Of a stretch of DNA of 64,000 bases, positions 1 to 7,267 are shown one piece after another. The stretch's first letter is position 1; each line of letters opens with the position of its first letter. Where the stretch lies: the NCBI RefSeq assembly GCF_900096995.1, contig NZ_OANT01000005.1:186001-250000 (forward strand), in the 5' to 3' direction. A model generated the notes under the pieces. It worked only from the letters and a program-made list of their open reading frames with translations. It did not search any database and was not told where the DNA came from. This DNA comes from Acinetobacter puyangensis. GTDB taxonomy: Bacteria > Pseudomonadota > Gammaproteobacteria > Pseudomonadales > Moraxellaceae. The position numbers were made by a program, and so were the translations under genes.

Positions 1-3000
1 CAGTAATATCTGTTTGCGCTGCACCTAAATCAGTTTGCAATGTACCAATATCACTTTCAGTTTGATCAACCCGTCCATCTAATGTTGTGACATCACCTTG
101 TGTCGTGGTTAAATCGGTACGAAGGTCAGTGACATCACTCTGTGTGGTCGTTAAGTCGGTACGTAAATCCGTGATGTTTGTTTCTGTTGTTCCAACTCGA
201 GTGTCCAGAGCACTGATATCACCTTGTACTGCACCTAAATCAGTTTGCAATGTACCAATATCACTTTCAGTTTGATCAACCCGTCCATCTAATGCCGTGA
301 CATCACCTTGTGTCGTGGTTAAATGGGTACGTAAATCCGTGATGTTTGTTTCTGTTGTTCCAACTCGAGTGTCCAGAGCACTGATATCACCTTGTACTGC
401 ACCTAAATCAGTTTGCAATGTACCAATATCACTTTCGGTTTGATCAACCCGTCCATCTAATGCCGTGACATCACCTTGTGTCGTGGTTAAATCGGTACGA
501 AGGTCAGTGACATCACCCTGTGTGGTTGTTAAGTCGGTACGTAAATCGGTTACATCACTCTGTGTGGTCGTTAAGTCGGTACGTAAATCGGTTACATCAC
601 TCTGTGTGGTCGTTAAGTCGGTACGTAAATCAGTGATGTTTGTTTCTGTCGTTCCAACTCGAGTGTCCAAAGCACTGATGTCACCTTGTACTGTGCCTAA
701 ATCAGTTTGCAATATACCAATATCACTTTCAGTTTGATCAACCCGTCCATCCAGTTTCCCGATTTCAGTATTGGCAGCGGTTAAACCTGTTTCTGTTTGA
801 CCAACTCGCGTATTCGTTGCATTTAACTGCTGACCTGTCACTGCATCAGTTGAAGTATCGGATAAGGTTGCATTTTGAAGATTGGTAATTTTTGTTCCTG
901 CTATACCACCTTGTAATGTAATCGTGTCTTTACTTGCCGAATCATATACTACCATATTGGCCGTTTGTTGATCGGTATAGCCCTTAGCATCATTGAGCGT
1001 GTTCGTTAGACCTGTGGTTAATGCACTTTGGTCGGCTTTTAAGGCTAACCCTGTATCAGCGTAATCTTTGGCATCCGTTAACGTCGTGGCTGCGGTTTGA
1101 TCGGTATAGCCCTTAGCATCATTGAGCGTGTTCGTTAGACCTGTAGTTAATGCACTTTGATCGGCTTTTAAGGCTAATCCTGTATCAGCGTAATCTTTGG
1201 CACTGGTTAATGTCGTGGCTGCGGTTTGATCGGTATAGCCCTTAGCATCATTGAGCGTATTCGTTAGACCTGTAGTTAATGCACTTTGATCGGCTTTTAA
1301 GGCTAATCCCGTATCAGCGTAATCTTTGGCATCCGTTAAAGTCGTGGCTGCGGTTTGATCGGTATAACCCTTAGCATCGTTGAGCGTATTCGCTAGACCT
1401 GTGGTTAATGCACTTTGATCGGCTTTTAAGGCTAATCCCGTATCAGCGTAATCTTTGGCATCCGTTAAAGTCGTGGCTGCGGTTTGATCGGTATAACCCT
1501 TAGCATCGTTGAGCGTATTCGCTAGACCTGTGGTTAATGCACTTTGATCAGCTTTTAAGGCTAATCCCGTATCAGCGTAATCTTTGGCATCCGTTAAAGT
1601 CGTGGCTGCGGTTTGATCGGTATAACCCTTAGCATCGTTGAGCGTATTCGCTAGACCTGTGGTTAATGCACTTTGATCAGCTTTTAAGGCTAATCCCGTA
1701 TCAGCGTAATCTTTGGCATCCGTTAACGTCGTGGCTGCGGTTTGATCGGTATAGCCCTTAGCATCGTTGAGCGTATTCGTTAGACCTGTAGTTAATGCAC
1801 TTTGATCGGCTTTTAAGGCTAATCCCGTATCAGCGTAATCTTTGGCATCCGTTAACGTCGTGGCTGCGGTTTGATCGGTATAGCCCTTAGCATCATTGAG
1901 CGTATTCGCTAGACCTGTAGTTAATGCACTTTGATCGGCTTTTAAGGCTAATCCCGTATCAGCGTAATCTTTGGCATCCGTTAACGTCGTGGCTGCGGTT
2001 TGATCGGTATAGCCCTTAGCATCATTGAGCGTATTCGCTAGACCTGTAGTTAATGCACTTTGATCGGCTTTTAAGGCTAACCCTGTATCAGCGTAATCTT
2101 TGGCACTGGTTAAAGTCGTGGCAAGTCCTGTACTTAAGTCCGACTGACTGGCTTTAGTTGCCAAACCATCAGTCAGTTCTGTTTTTGATGCTTTTAACGC
2201 TAGACCTGCATCAACTGCGGTTTGATCTGCTTTTAACGCAACGGCTTCATTGGTGGCAAATAATTGCTGACCTGTCACCGCATCGGTTGAAATATCAGAT
2301 AAGGTTGCATTTTTAAGATTGGTAATCTTTGTGCCACCTGTTCCACCTGCCAAGGTAATTTGTTCACTCGTTGCTGTGTCGTACAATACCGCACCTGTTA
2401 TACCGCCACCTGCAAGTAAACTTTGTGCTGTGCGTAAATTGACTGCATCCGTACCCTTGACCGCATTAGCGACATTAGTAATCCGTTTTTCTGCACCAGA
2501 TTGACCGACTGAAATGGTATTGGCTTCATCTGCTAAAGAATCGTAGCCAAGAGCTGTGGCTTTTTCAGCAGTTGCTAAGCTGTAACTACCAAAAACACTA
2601 CTATATTGTGCTGTGGCTTGATTACTGGCGCCATATGCAGCACTTGCATCCCCTGATGCAGTATTATTAAATCCAACTGCGCTACTTGCCAGCCCAGAAG
2701 CCTTATTGATTACACCCAAAGCACTACTTGCAATATGGCTCGCTTGATTGCCTTTCGCACTCCAAGTACCTGTTGCATAATTTATAAATGCCTGTTTGGC
2801 AGCATCGCTTAAATTTGTTTGCCCATTAATTGAAACAATCATTTCAGCTGTAAGGCTACCATCCCCTGCCCATACTGGACTACCAGCTGGCTGATTTGTT
2901 ATTACTACAAAATCACCAAACGATAATGTGCTTGTGATTGCGCTATAAGATTCAACAGAATGTGCTTTTTTACCACTTCCAACTGCTGTACTCCCTATTC

Positions 3001-3307
3001 CCGAAGCTACATTACCATTACCACATGCAAATGCATTAGAACCTATCGCTGTACTTCCCCCTGTCCCAGCACTGCCATCTGCATCACAGACCTCTGCCCA
3101 AACATTGCCGCCCGTAATTATGGTAATGCTGAGTACGATTGTTTGTAAACCAAATACTCTCAATGTAACTGGATGTGATGTTAGTGCTTCCAAATTTGTG
3201 GTCGTACCCGTCGTATTATCCGTCTTCCCTGCACTTTTTGCATTTTCCGAAACCACCACCATACGTCCCAGTGATTTATTCCATATTTTTTTAAAAATGT
3301 GATTCAT
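1..3307 (-). CDS. Trimeric autotransporter adhesin (YadA/Ata-like), N-terminal part; C-terminus beyond left edge
   Basis: The reading frame is open from the ATG at 3307 to the window edge, about 1100 residues. It opens with an ESPR-type extended signal peptide (MNHIFKKIWNKSLGRMVVVS, then ENAKSAGK) and a hydrophobic segment ending GGNVWAE. Next come YadA-head motifs of the form S-A-x-G (GSTAIGSNAFACGNG, ASSAVGFNNTASGDAS). A neck-like segment follows (ITNVANAVKGTDAVNLRTA), and then a long Ala/Asp/Thr/Leu-rich coiled-coil stalk built of two tandem repeat families. Proteins of this family trimerise, are anchored by a C-terminal 12-strand barrel (type Vc secretion) and bind host matrix or abiotic surfaces. 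The anchor is not in the window. The gene is the only one on its strand here and is divergent from a two-component system that shares an upstream site with it. The family call is firm; the ligand is unknown. Confidence 0.93.
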   Translation of the reverse strand, partial: MNHIFKKIWNKSLGRMVVVSENAKSAGKTDNTTGTTTNLEALTSHPVTLRVFGLQTIVLSITIITGGNVWAEVCDADGSAGTGGSTAIGSNAFACGNGNVASGIGSTAVGSGKKAHSVESYSAITSTLSFGDFVVITNQPAGSPVWAGDGSLTAEMIVSINGQTNLSDAAKQAFINYATGTWSAKGNQASHIASSALGVINKASGLASSAVGFNNTASGDASAAYGASNQATAQYSSVFGSYSLATAEKATALGYDSLADEANTISVGQSGAEKRITNVANAVKGTDAVNLRTAQSLLAGGGITGAVLYDTATSEQITLAGGTGGTKITNLKNATLSDISTDAVTGQQLFATNEAVALKADQTAVDAGLALKASKTELTDGLATKASQSDLSTGLATTLTSAKDYADTGLALKADQSALTTGLANTLNDAKGYTDQTAATTLTDAKDYADTGLALKADQSALTTGLANTLNDAKGYTDQTAATTLTDAKDYADTGLALKADQSALTTGLTNTLNDAKGYTDQTAATTLTDAKDYADTGLALKADQSALTTGLANTLNDAKGYTDQTAATTLTDAKDYADTGLALKADQSALTTGLANTLNDAKGYTDQTAATTLTDAKDYADTGLALKADQSALTTGLANTLNDAKGYTDQTAATTLTDAKDYADTGLALKADQSALTTGLTNTLNDAKGYTDQTAATTLTSAKDYADTGLALKADQSALTTGLTNTLNDAKGYTDQTAATTLTDAKDYADTGLALKADQSALTTGLTNTLNDAKGYTDQQTANMVVYDSASKDTITLQGGIAGTKITNLQNATLSDTSTDAVTGQQLNATNTRVGQTETGLTAANTEIGKLDGRVDQTESDIGILQTDLGTVQGDISALDTRVGTTETNITDLRTDLTTTQSDVTDLRTDLTTTQSDVTDLRTDLTTTQGDVTDLRTDLTTTQGDVTALDGRVDQTESDIGTLQTDLGAVQGDISALDTRVGTTETNITDLRTHLTTTQGDVTALDGRVDQTESDIGTLQTDLGAVQGDISALDTRVGTTETNITDLRTDLTTTQSDVTDLRTDLTTTQGDVTTLDGRVDQTESDIGTLQTDLGAAQTDIT
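61..755 (-). repeat. 42-bp tandem repeats (14-residue coiled-coil units) in the adhesin stalk
   Basis: The coding strand repeats a 14-residue unit of the type RTDLTTTQSDVTDL, two heptads long. Exact or near-exact 42-bp copies lie around 500-630. Larger duplicated blocks are multiples of 42 bp: the element reading gtgatgtttg on the plus strand recurs at 171, 339 and 633, spacings of 168 and 294 bp. This suggests recent expansion by unequal recombination or slippage, and copy number is likely to vary between strains. Confidence 0.9.
960..2132 (-). repeat. 129-bp tandem repeats (43-residue units), about nine copies, in the adhesin stalk
   Basis: The plus-strand marker tcggtata recurs at 972, 1101, 1230, 1359, 1488, 1617, 1746, 1875 and 2004, an exact 129-bp period. 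Each unit encodes 43 residues beginning DAKGYTDQTAATTLTDAKDY and ending with a DTGLALKADQSALTTGLANT-like half. Copies differ at only a few bases. A period of 43 is not a multiple of seven, so the stalk probably mixes heptads with 11- or 15-residue coiled-coil units. Confidence 0.93.
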
Positions 3308-3331: not shown

Positions 3332-3398
3332 ATAGAAAATAGGTTAATTAAAGGTGTTTTTTTGTACGCTGCCTATCACTGAAATTGGGTATTTTCAA
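3332..3398 (-). promoter_or_regulatory. Putative regulatory site and promoter region of the adhesin
   Basis: Read toward the adhesin, 3398-3379 is TTGAAAATACCCAATTTCAG, followed by one base and GATAG (to 3373). The same 26-nt element, with one difference, lies upstream of the divergent response regulator at 4642-4667. It carries the short dyad TGAAA-N8-TTTCA. Further downstream both units share TATTTTCTAT (3341-3332 here), a candidate -10 region. The shared element is seen directly; that it binds the adjacent response regulator is inference. Confidence 0.6.
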
Positions 3399-3799
3399 CA
3401 ATTTAAACTACGTCTAGTCTGTGATTTTATTCGTTTATTAGGCGTATGGATTCACTGTCCCCTGCAAAATTCAAATCTAAGTGCTTTGTTACTCTTAATA
3501 CGGATAATTAAAAAATAATAGAAGTCAATGAATAATCAAAATAAAGCATTTTTTAATATTAATTTAATTATAATTCAATAGCTTAAATAAAATTATAAAA
3601 AGAAAAAACTTAAAAATACCATCATATTTAAGTTTCAAACCTAGAATTATTGCGTCATACCATAGACATATAAAACAAACATCTGATCATAATCAACATA
3701 TATATTTTGTAGAATATTATCTCATAAAATAAAAATAATGACATACTCGATAATATCAGACTATTTTATTTTTTCGACACAGACTTCTACCTCCTTAAT

Positions 3800-3991
3800 C
3801 TAATCTTTCCTAAAAAAATAATAATAAAGCTTCACCTTAAACTCTATGGCAAACAATATACTAAGAATCGTCATCAATAAAGCAATCAATAAAAATAATA
3901 CATCCATATATATAATCGCAACAATAAAAAATAAAATTGAAATTAAAACTAAAATCCAAAACAATACTTCTAAAATAAAAGTTATCATCAT
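3800..3991 (-). CDS. Possible small two-helix membrane protein
   Basis: A 63-residue frame that is almost entirely hydrophobic, with two predicted membrane spans (about residues 4-28 and 30-50), ending in a basic and aromatic tail (KVKLYYYFFRKD). A purine-rich GGGGGA at 4002-3997 lies 5 nt before the ATG at 3991, a usable ribosome binding site; GTG at 3994 and ATG at 3988 are alternatives. AT-rich DNA easily yields spurious hydrophobic frames, so the gene is uncertain. No family is recognised. Confidence 0.4.
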   Translation of the reverse strand: MMITFILEVLFWILVLISILFFIVAIIYMDVLFLLIALLMTILSILFAIEFKVKLYYYFFRKD

Positions 3992-4641
3992 CACATTCCC
4001 CCATGATATACATTAATAAATATCTTAAATCTCAACATCTCATCATTTATCATAAATATGAGTATCCTGATTCCATTCAAGATATAATTTGCATTTAAGG
4101 CTGGATAAAGATACTATGTATTAAACAATATAATACATATGTTTTATATCACTAAAATTTGGTATTTTTTCTTTTTATAACAATAAATTAATTGATAATA
4201 ATTTAAATATATGCGATATGTATCACAAAAAATCAACATAACAATAATTATTTAACAAACTTAGAAAAATGTTATTTGTCATAAGTGCTATTAAAGTTCA
4301 AACTAAGTTAAATTTTTTGTATGTATAAAATTTAATCTCAAATTAAAAGACATAAATTTTAAATCCTTTTTATAATACTTATTGATGGTAATTTATCTGG
4401 TATTCTTTCAATATCACAAAAATTTATTATAGCAACACTCTAAACACCAACTAAATCTCTAATAAAAATCCAGATATATGCAAACAAAAATACACAATTA
4501 TTGCAGCACACGACATATAGTCACTACTCAATAACAACAAAGGTATTGAATTTTCAGACAAGTACATTTTAAAAACCAAACTTGAGAAAATGATTGTGTA
4601 TATTATTCATTTTATAATTTTTCAAAACATTTTATTGCTAC

Positions 4642-4690
4642 TTGAAAATACCCAATTTCAGGGATAGCACAATCAATCACTATTTTCTAT
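4642..4690 (+). promoter_or_regulatory. Putative regulatory site and promoter of the two-component operon
   Basis: TTGAAAATACCCAATTTCAG at 4642-4661, followed by G and GATAG, matches the element upstream of the divergent adhesin. The 10-mer TATTTTCTAT at 4681-4690, followed by GCTATAAAAG, is also shared in part and may hold the -10. The response regulator ATG is at 4725. Autoregulation by the encoded regulator is inferred from the shared element. Confidence 0.6.
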
Positions 4691-4724
4691 GCTATAAAAG
4701 ACCACCCAGATCACAAGGCAGTAC

Positions 4725-5411
4725 ATGGTGTCCAGTCAGGAACTTACTTTACCTATTCCGGTACTTATTGTTGAAGATGATGCCGCTATACAACAGCGTT
4801 TAAAGGACTTGTTACTCAATCTGGGTTATCAACAGGATATGCTTATTTTTGTCCAGACCCTGCAAGCAGCTCTGGATACATTAAAACAGCAACCGGTTTC
4901 TTTTGCACTGGTGGATTTGGGGTTACCCGATGGCAATGGTAAAACCTTTATTGAAGCATTACGGCATTTGGATCCGTCTTGTCCGATTCTGGTGATTTCG
5001 GCATGGAGTACACAAGATGCCATTTTGGGTGCGATTCAGGCGGGCGCAACCGGATATGTCCTCAAGGAACGTGATGATCTGGAAGTATCCATGTCTATCC
5101 GCAGTATTTTACGTGGTGGTGCACCGATTGATCCCTTTATCGCCCAGCAAATTTTAAGCAAACTGATTTCACCCTCGTCAAATGCACCCCGTTCAACTGA
5201 AAATATCGCGGAAAAAGGTTTGCTTTCACATCGTGAACATGAGATTTTAGAACTGGTCGCCAAGGGTATGAGCAATAAGGAAATTGCCGAATTTATTCAC
5301 CTTTCAAGATATACTGTCGAATGCCATATCAAACATATTTATCGCAAGCTGTCTGTGTCGAGTCGCGCAAAAGCCATCAATACTGCCCGCTCTTTAGGCA
5401 TATTACCTTAA
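4725..5411 (+). CDS. NarL/LuxR-family response regulator
   Basis: 228 residues. An N-terminal receiver domain (about 12-130) shows the acidic pair in VEDDAAI (D18, D19) and the phosphoacceptor D64 in VDLGLPDGNG, with the switch Lys in VLKERDDLE. The C-terminal LuxR helix-turn-helix (about 165-225) reads LSHREHEILELVAKGMSNKEIAEF and continues with HIKHIYRKL. It should act as a cytoplasmic DNA-binding activator or repressor phosphorylated by the kinase encoded just downstream. AAGG at -11 supports the start at 4725. The divergent adhesin carries the same upstream element, so that gene is the most likely target; this is inference. It is too generic to name. Confidence 0.9.
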   Translation: MVSSQELTLPIPVLIVEDDAAIQQRLKDLLLNLGYQQDMLIFVQTLQAALDTLKQQPVSFALVDLGLPDGNGKTFIEALRHLDPSCPILVISAWSTQDAILGAIQAGATGYVLKERDDLEVSMSIRSILRGGAPIDPFIAQQILSKLISPSSNAPRSTENIAEKGLLSHREHEILELVAKGMSNKEIAEFIHLSRYTVECHIKHIYRKLSVSSRAKAINTARSLGILP

Positions 5412-7267
5412 TTGTATCTTGTATTTTATGTTTGATCGCATCTACAGCTTACGCAGCCCAGCCATCCGTATGTACGACAAATATTCAGCATATCGCTGTT
5501 GCACAAGCAATAGGTGATGGCACACAACGCCCGTTACAGGGCTGGCAGACGATAAAACAACTTCCCGATTTTATTGATGATCACTGGAAACTCTATTCAG
5601 GTAGTGTCTGGTATAGAATCCGCTGGGATTATCATTGCCCGATCACTCAGAAAAATCCGGTAACACTGGTGATTAGCCATATCAATATGGCAGGTCAAGT
5701 CTATATTAATGATGATCTACTTTGGCAGGATCAATCATTAGTCGAACCTTTATCACGTAGCTGGAATATGCCCCGTTACTGGAATATTCCTGCATCTGCA
5801 CTGAAACAAGGTGAAAATATCATCTGGATTCGGGTTGTGGCAGTGGCTACGCAGACCTCAGGTCTTGGTCAGGTCGTTTTGGGTGATGCTAGTCAAGTCA
5901 TGCCACGATATCAGAATTTCTGGCGTGAACAACGCGTCTTGATGTTTTTTAACCTGATTTTTTCCCTGACACTGGGCGTAATTGCTTTACTGGTCTGGTT
6001 ATTTCAGCGTAAGGAACATGTATTTGGCTGGTTTGCCCTCAATTCACTGGCATGGGTTCTCATTATTTACAATGTGGTGGCTCTTAAGCCACCTTTTGGG
6101 CTGGACACCTTACAAATGGCACGCATCAATATTGTCGCTATCACGGCGTATAGTGTATTTGCATGTTTTTATGCTTGGCGACTGGCACAACGACGTTTTG
6201 CACATTTGGAACGAGGTTTAATTGTCCTATTACTTAGCATCGTCCTGTTAGCAATTTTTCTACCTGATCACATTGCAATCCTCAATACTTTTTTAGTGAT
6301 TACCTTTATCGTGGCAATGTTGATCTCTATCGTTCACTTTATCAGCTATCCTTTTATTGCATGGCGTTCCAGACAACTAGAAGCCTACCTGTTAGCGGGC
6401 GTTTTTATTATATATGTTGCCCTGATGACACATGATATTTTATATCTGCTCCGAGTGATTAATAGTTTTCCAATCATTGCCTATACAGCACCTTTAACCA
6501 CACTTCTCATTGCCATTATTCTGGCTATGCGTCTGGCCAAAAATGTTAAACGTATCGAGGGTTTCAACAAAGCTTTAAAAGAAAATGTCTTACAGGCTAA
6601 AGAGGAATTAACCACTTCGTTAAATATTCAGCATAAACTGGCCTTAGAAAACACCAGATTGCAGGAACGAATGAACCTAGCGCATGATCTACATGATGGA
6701 CTGGGCGGCTCGTTGGTACGCTCCATGGCAATTGTTGATCAAAGCAAGGACAATCTCACTAATCCACAATTTTTATCCATGTTAAAACTATTACGTGATG
6801 ATTTAAGACAAATCATTGATAGCGGTTCCAGTTTGGGTGCCAAAGTTCCCGAAACACCGATAATATGGGGTGCGCCTGTCCGCTACCGTTTTATCCAGAT
6901 TTTTGATGAACTGGATATTCAGTCCTCGTGGTCATTTCCGACAGTCTGGCAAAGCAAGCCTACAGCACTGGAATGTTTAACTGTATTACGTGTAATTGAA
7001 GAATCATTAACCAATATCCTTAAACATAGTCAGGCAACACAGGTGAATGTTCATCTCTATTACAGGCTTCCCACCCAGCTTGTTTTCGAGATTGAAGATA
7101 ATGGTATTGGTTTTGATGTGGATTCTGTACTTGAATCCGGAATCAGTGTCGGTATTCGTAGCATGCAGATTCGATTAGCAAAAATTCAGGCAAATATGCA
7201 CATCGAATCACAACCGGGTCGAACTTTTATTCAAGTGATTAAAGATTTTAAGCCGATTCAACCTTAA
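5321..7267 (+). CDS. Membrane sensor histidine kinase (HisKA_3 type, 7TM-like sensor)
   Basis: Up to 648 residues. After a signal-like hydrophobic segment (about 29-46, ending AYA-AQ) comes a periplasmic jelly-roll-like domain (about 50-195) and then roughly seven membrane spans (about 205-410), resembling 7TMR-DISM sensors. The cytoplasmic part has the HisKA_3 H-box [13 protein letters not shown] (His near 458), an N-box [14 protein letters not shown] and a G1 box DNGIGFD. It is the cognate kinase of the LuxR-type regulator. The only in-frame standard start upstream of the signal segment is the ATG at 5321, which overlaps the regulator gene by 91 nt and gives an unusually long N-region. A non-standard start close to the regulator stop is possible. 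The ligand is unknown. Confidence 0.87.

Follow-up and report, generated by a model that had tools for sequence, protein, structure and literature searches.

Does the sequence repeated upstream of an adhesin gene and a two-component operon in Acinetobacter puyangensis serve as the operator through which the regulator of that operon controls both? The window, the whole stretch of 64,000 nucleotides that was analyzed, opens within the gene for a trimeric autotransporter adhesin (1..3307, minus strand; 1783 aa in full), which runs off the window and is represented by its 5' part. On the opposite strand lie a response regulator gene (4725..5411, plus strand) and a sensor histidine kinase gene (5321..7267, plus strand) that overlaps it. 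A sequence-only reading had reported a shared 26-nt element in front of adhesin and regulator, and two copies were located with the coordinates and strands that it gave, 3398-3373 on the minus strand and 4642-4667 on the plus strand, identical at 25 of 26 letters. The gaps from element to start codon were likewise as described, with 65 nt to the adhesin ATG (3307) and 57 nt to the regulator ATG (4725). A match of this kind had been judged improbable by chance, and no match with three or fewer mismatches arose in 100 dinucleotide shuffles of the window. In the genome (3.78 Mb, 35 contigs), the 26-mer was found at three or fewer mismatches at the two window places only, and the reversed 26-mer gave 0 matches.

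The stretch between the two copies had been taken for random sequence. This was not the case: at 22% G+C, compared with 41% for the window, it holds a third predicted promoter and a small ORF. The 21-nt core of the element occurred with 0-1 mismatch at only three sites in the genome, all in this cluster. In the predicted operator of the adhesin promoter (copy 1, 3373..3398, minus strand), the core spans 3394-3374 with 0 mismatches and a matrix score of 32.7; the predicted -10 hexamer, TTTAAT (3347..3352, minus strand), lies 21 nt past the core, with a predicted transcription start near 3340. The predicted third operator, AAATACCAAATTTTAGTGATA (4147..4167, minus strand), has one mismatch to the core and a matrix score of 24.5, and is followed at 21 nt by a predicted -10 TTTAAT (4120..4125, minus strand) and a predicted start near 4113. 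The predicted operator of the regulator-kinase operon (copy 2, 4642..4667, plus strand; core 4646-4666) scores 36.8. Its predicted -10, TATGCT (4688..4693, plus strand), again lies 21 nt past the core, with a predicted transcription start near 4700, and matches TATAAT at only four of six positions. Nine further core matches with 2-3 mismatches in the same genome were considered as targets and rejected; none combines a high matrix score with a -10 hexamer at 21 nt, and the best-scoring (17.6) has 0/6 at the -10. The reversed core gave five matches in this genome at three or fewer mismatches.

Downstream of the third operator is a 63-codon ORF (3991-3803, minus strand, within 3800..3991) with a Shine-Dalgarno-like sequence, predicted to encode a small hydrophobic protein. 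It matched no Pfam or NCBIfam family, and a paralogue with 49% identity lies elsewhere in this genome, on a different contig (G000:C13:15399-15581). A search of 77 other genomes returned no clear orthologue, and the ORF is not regarded as a conserved member of the cluster because only weak matches were obtained, in five of those 77 (28-33% identity, E 4e-4 to 6e-3). In the corresponding clusters of A. populi (L146) and of G064 (L144), different ORFs follow the extra sites, with lengths of 116, 132 and 141 codons.

The repeat of 26 nt is real, and as a conserved unit it is shorter, about 21-22 nt, with a leading TTG that varies. The core forms an imperfect inverted repeat with an 8-4-8 layout. 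Its most symmetric relatives, few in number and including one in L138, read TATCCCTA-N4-TAGGGATA, a perfect 8-4-8 inverted repeat; the window copies, with half-sites AATACCCA-ATTT-CAGNGATA, are asymmetric versions. Symmetry was assessed over 125 non-redundant sites, those left after sites with similar downstream sequence were collapsed, and agreement between halves averaged 4.8 of 8 positions. The sequence-only reading had pointed to a TGAAA-N8-TTTCA dyad. Both window copies do contain it, and as the symmetry that a protein recognizes it did not stand, with both arms in 2 of the 125 sites and the left arm in 3. Self-complementarity of the matrix peaks at the 8-4-8 center (mean 0.210, 13 column pairs); the center of the TGAAA-N8-TTTCA dyad ranks second (0.187, 9 pairs), and its strong pairs are A/T only. 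The heptamer recognized by NarL is TACYYMT. At six or more of seven positions, it was matched by 89 of the 125 left half-sites and 61 of the right, compared with 0.6% of background heptamers, a fit that is a description and not a test because the matrix that selected the sites includes these letters. The sequence fits a regulator dimer bound to paired heptamers.

A -10-like hexamer (at least four of six matches to TATAAT) lay exactly 21 nt past the core in 62% of the 125 sites, compared with 1-24% at any other offset between 8 and 41, and this result is independent of how the sites were chosen because the matrix excludes the -10 region. With the -10 hexamer counted as -12 to -7, the core spans -54 to -34, which puts the center of the inverted repeat at -43.5. 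An operator that replaces the -35 box near -43.5 occupies the position of a class II activator. Here the operator lies over the -35 position at a constant distance from the -10 hexamer, and we infer from this layout that the promoters are activator-dependent and of the class II type. The same regulator might instead use the site as a repressor, shutting down the adhesin and its own operon, and overlap with the -35 position, where a bound protein could block polymerase, speaks for that reading. Such a role is nevertheless improbable: a center near -43.5, kept 21 nt from the -10 across many different promoters, is the known layout of class II activators, and a repressor would have no need of constant spacing.

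The candidate for the bound protein is the response regulator encoded in the window. It has a receiver domain (PF00072, 68.5 bits; cut-off 30.2) and a C-terminal LuxR/GerE-type helix-turn-helix (PF00196, 66.6 bits; cut-off 23.5), the domain pair of the NarL/FixJ family, and is 96% identical to the regulator of A. populi PBJ7 (G144). The kinase carries a HATPase_c domain and a putative 7TMR-DISM-like seven-helix membrane region. The match to 7TMR-DISM_7TM is weak in the window kinase (16.8 bits; cut-off 29) and exceeds the cut-off in two (31.1 and 31.4 bits) of a set of nine kinases to which the window's belongs. The regulator region had no match in the plasmid collection.

Presence of the element was compared with presence of the regulator among 149 genomes of the genus, of which 78 were regulator-positive, defined as having a homologue of at least 170 bits. 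The 26-mer at three or fewer mismatches was present in 26 of the 149, and the reversed control in 0. All 26 were among the 78 regulator-positive genomes, compared with 0 of the 71 negative genomes (Fisher p = 4.7e-9, relatedness ignored); this and the other p-values and null comparisons given here are too optimistic, owing to relatedness among the genomes and to a matrix seeded with the window pattern. In one site-bearing genome, G080, the regulator homologue is split into two separate pieces. The relaxed 21-nt core (two or fewer mismatches) was found in 109 of 175 genomes, a count on which nothing is built because the reversed control also matches many genomes at that stringency.

The site was also scored in front of the regulator genes themselves. 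The set consisted of 82 distinct genes from the loci analyzed, a part of all homologues found, left after identical stretches and genes less than 300 nt from a locus edge were dropped; their start codons were predicted by aligning them with the window's regulator. The leave-one-out matrix score exceeded the 99th percentile of a Markov null for 62 of the 82, in a test that is not fully independent, with relatives staying in the training set. In 60 of the 82 homologues, down to 33% identity, the passing site lay 38-70 nt upstream of the start codon predicted in this way. Of the 20 that failed the matrix score, eight have the common recognition helix (L041, L042, L044, L045, L047, L051, L053 and L059), and their genomes carry the site at another locus.

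The association extends beyond the genus. Among 199 genomes drawn from the family, 27 had a regulator homologue (E of 1e-30 or less), 25 of them members of the genus and two from elsewhere in the family; no site was found for these two (51% and 36% identical). A scan of 84,980 species genomes for the exact 21-nt pattern returned 32 stretches: 14 from Acinetobacter, eight from Ottowia, seven from Achromobacter and one each from Comamonas composti, an Alcaligenaceae bacterium and a member of Neomarinimicrobiota, the last overlapped by an ORF. All six betaproteobacterial genomes examined encode a regulator with 59-62% identity. In five of the six, a site (score of at least 19.6) lies 68-76 nt before the predicted regulator start, and in the sixth a strong site faces a divergent gene. 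Three more distant Ottowia paralogues (31-38% identical) had no site; identity alone is not decisive, since Acinetobacter paralogues of 33-50% identity do carry sites. The promoter spacing recurred in these genomes: of the 20 sites found in the six, 17 had a -10-like hexamer 21 nt past the core, compared with no more than 2 of 20 at any other offset from 12 to 31, and the last -10 position was T in all 20.

These data bear on a second alternative, in which another transcription factor, or an alternative sigma factor with its own promoter, also serves the cluster. In seven genomes with site and regulator gene on one contig (G009, G042, G057, G060, G114, G116 and G146), the two are about 103-165 kb apart, as such a reading would allow. 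It is set against by the restriction of the 26-mer to regulator-positive genomes, by a core that tracks the regulator into the betaproteobacteria, by a -10 that is sigma-70-like and, descriptively only, by half-sites that fit the NarL-family heptamer. We consider it very unlikely, more so than repression by the same regulator. A recent promoter duplication or a functionless chance repeat would explain the long near-identity inside one genome and can be dismissed with high confidence, contradicted as it is across species: the copies differ in their flanks, and the core with its -10 spacing persists in many species.

Control of the adhesin by the window's regulator was evaluated separately. The adhesin has an ESPR domain (50.8 bits), a YadA stalk (61.8 bits) and head, collagen-like repeats and a YadA anchor (41.3 bits; cut-off 22.7). 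Its coding sequence (2-3307, minus strand; L147:7956-13307, minus strand) contains long near-identical coiled-coil repeats, and the collagen-like stretch is best at residues 1332-1387. A search with the N-terminal 60 residues found 75 matches spread over 57 of 173 genomes, and a set of 74 genes was retained after a gene of G129 at a contig end was dropped. Sites were called at a score of at least 10 with a matrix trained on regulator promoters only. A site preceded 22 of 52 adhesins where the genome had the regulator, compared with 0 of 22 where it did not (Fisher p = 1.5e-4 by gene, 2e-6 by genome), at 59-78 nt from the start in 18 of the 22 and at 182-222 nt in four. The link is not universal, because 30 of the 52 adhesins in regulator-positive genomes have no site. 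Adhesin-like genes also follow the site in betaproteobacteria: one Achromobacter site (L290) precedes a gene with an ESPR domain, and the Comamonas site (L249) a gene with an ESPR-like N-terminus, as read from the N-terminus only.

Other genes appear to be downstream of the same operator. Sites precede pilin-like genes near more distant regulator paralogues in Acinetobacter, and several putative lipoproteins in Ottowia, all read from N-termini only. In L003, L016, L019 and L022, a short conserved ORF, with about 27 codons and a hydrophobic, membrane-type product, begins about 70-90 nt past the operator; it shows in-frame differences in L016, and is followed by a terminator-like hairpin. It is flanked by genes that we take, from protein starts, to be mpl-like and acetyltransferase-like. 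In the Achromobacter loci L284 and L285, a conserved operator and a 5/6 -10 have no convincing gene directly downstream. What we presume to be a LigB-like ORF begins about 300 nt from the operator in L284, and in both loci the downstream region may be a noncoding RNA or else a leader of some length.

A further Acinetobacter locus, which we assume from protein starts to lie between thiE-like and Mpo1-like genes, has the operator and -10 with no ORF directly downstream; the transcript predicted there is noncoding and about 110-160 nt long. Ten such loci were folded (L004, L006, L007, L013, L017, L020, L021, L023, L025 and L026), and the same site context was seen in L008-L012 and L024. In the ten folded loci, the transcript ends in a 17-22-bp hairpin with a G-rich loop, and up to 11 of 16 positions of the basal pairs have changed on both sides between species, a compensatory pattern. 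A scan of six loci with the candidate small RNA or small ORF against Rfam gave no family at the gathering score. The transcript is a candidate small RNA of this regulon, and its tie to the regulator is presumptive.

A diverged clade of regulators (about 55% identical) lacks the standard site at the regulator. Its recognition helix, EAHLRNIYSKL or ESHLRNIYGKL-like in the five aligned (L125, L127, L128, L129 and L132), differs from that of most others. A variant operator, TACCAAATTTCAATGATT, was found before seven adhesins (G006, G056, G070, G079, G124, G137 and G161; loci L125, L128, L129, L132, L166, L169 and L181), 60-61 nt from the start codon. It ends in AATGATT and not GGGATA, and TCTAAT lies 20 and not 21 nt downstream in seven distinct copies. 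With the helix read in four of the seven variant genomes, this is suggestive of co-variation between operator and regulator.

The element is thus very probably the operator of the NarL/FixJ-type regulator, which would activate its own operon, the adhesin and a small membrane protein gene. The element's sequence, position and conservation, its -10 spacing and its co-occurrence with the regulator were computed directly. The earlier proposal, in which the regulator controls the adhesin as well as its own operon, is supported, as far as sequence comparison can speak to it, by that co-occurrence, by the fixed position of the site, by adhesin sites confined to regulator-positive genomes and by the -10 spacing. 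In the mechanism we propose, the kinase encoded by the next gene would phosphorylate the regulator (4725-5411), and a regulator dimer would bind the imperfect inverted repeat centered near -43.5. The bound regulator would then activate sigma-70-type promoters whose -10 lies 21 nt past the operator, with the operator standing in for the -35 box. Three promoters, all in one cluster, would be switched on in this way, those of its own operon (positive feedback), the adhesin and the small membrane protein. Binding, activation rather than repression, phosphorylation and a sensed signal are all inferred steps of this scheme.

At its fixed distance from the predicted transcription start across many Acinetobacter and distant relatives, the element looks like a common on-switch for surface proteins. 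We advance more tentatively the broader idea that one two-component family, found in Acinetobacter (in more than one copy in several genomes) and some Burkholderiales, is a dedicated cell-surface switch, and that adhesin clusters move with their own regulator and share an operator code. Through a common operator at -43.5, the family would drive pilin-like genes and genes for trimeric autotransporters, lipoproteins and small membrane proteins, and a structured small RNA as well in some Acinetobacter. With the operator defined at base level, the promoter geometry described and a candidate regulator named, the control of a giant adhesin can be tested directly. The operator also allows target prediction in other species, betaproteobacteria included, and suggests that outputs extend to small membrane proteins and to the candidate small RNA. 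Literature searches over open-licence PMC papers listed no account of this operator, which may be described elsewhere, and none of how Acinetobacter trimeric autotransporters are switched on.

Among characterized systems, the best NCBIfam matches are MadR for the regulator (110.6 bits) and MctS for the kinase (51.4 bits); identity with the MadRS and MctRS systems was rejected, both scores being far below the cut-offs of 300 bits (equivalog) and 700 bits. NarL, FimZ and UhpA share the receiver and GerE helix-turn-helix, and the half-sites found here resemble NarL heptamers. The heptamers of NarL are separated by 2 nt, compared with 4 nt here, and these known regulators have other target genes. 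Membership of the NarL or FimZ family was rejected at 84.8/250 and 85.2/271 bits, far below the cut-offs. GacA/GacS with RsmY/RsmZ likewise combines a LuxR-type regulator with operators before small RNAs, which here are candidates; the operator differs from the GacA box, and assignment to UvrY/SirA/GacA was rejected at 54.2 bits against an NCBIfam equivalog cut-off of 280. BvgA/BvgS of Bordetella is similar in its LuxR-type regulator, its autoregulation and its adhesin targets. The operator differs from the familiar BvgA heptamer, and the kinase, with HATPase_c and a putative 7TMR-DISM-like region, differs from BvgS in that its Pfam matches include neither a phosphorelay domain nor a periplasmic-binding one. 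The main interpretation is well supported by the sequence comparisons, and the regulon, for which the literature searched gave no description, belongs to a known kind of system.
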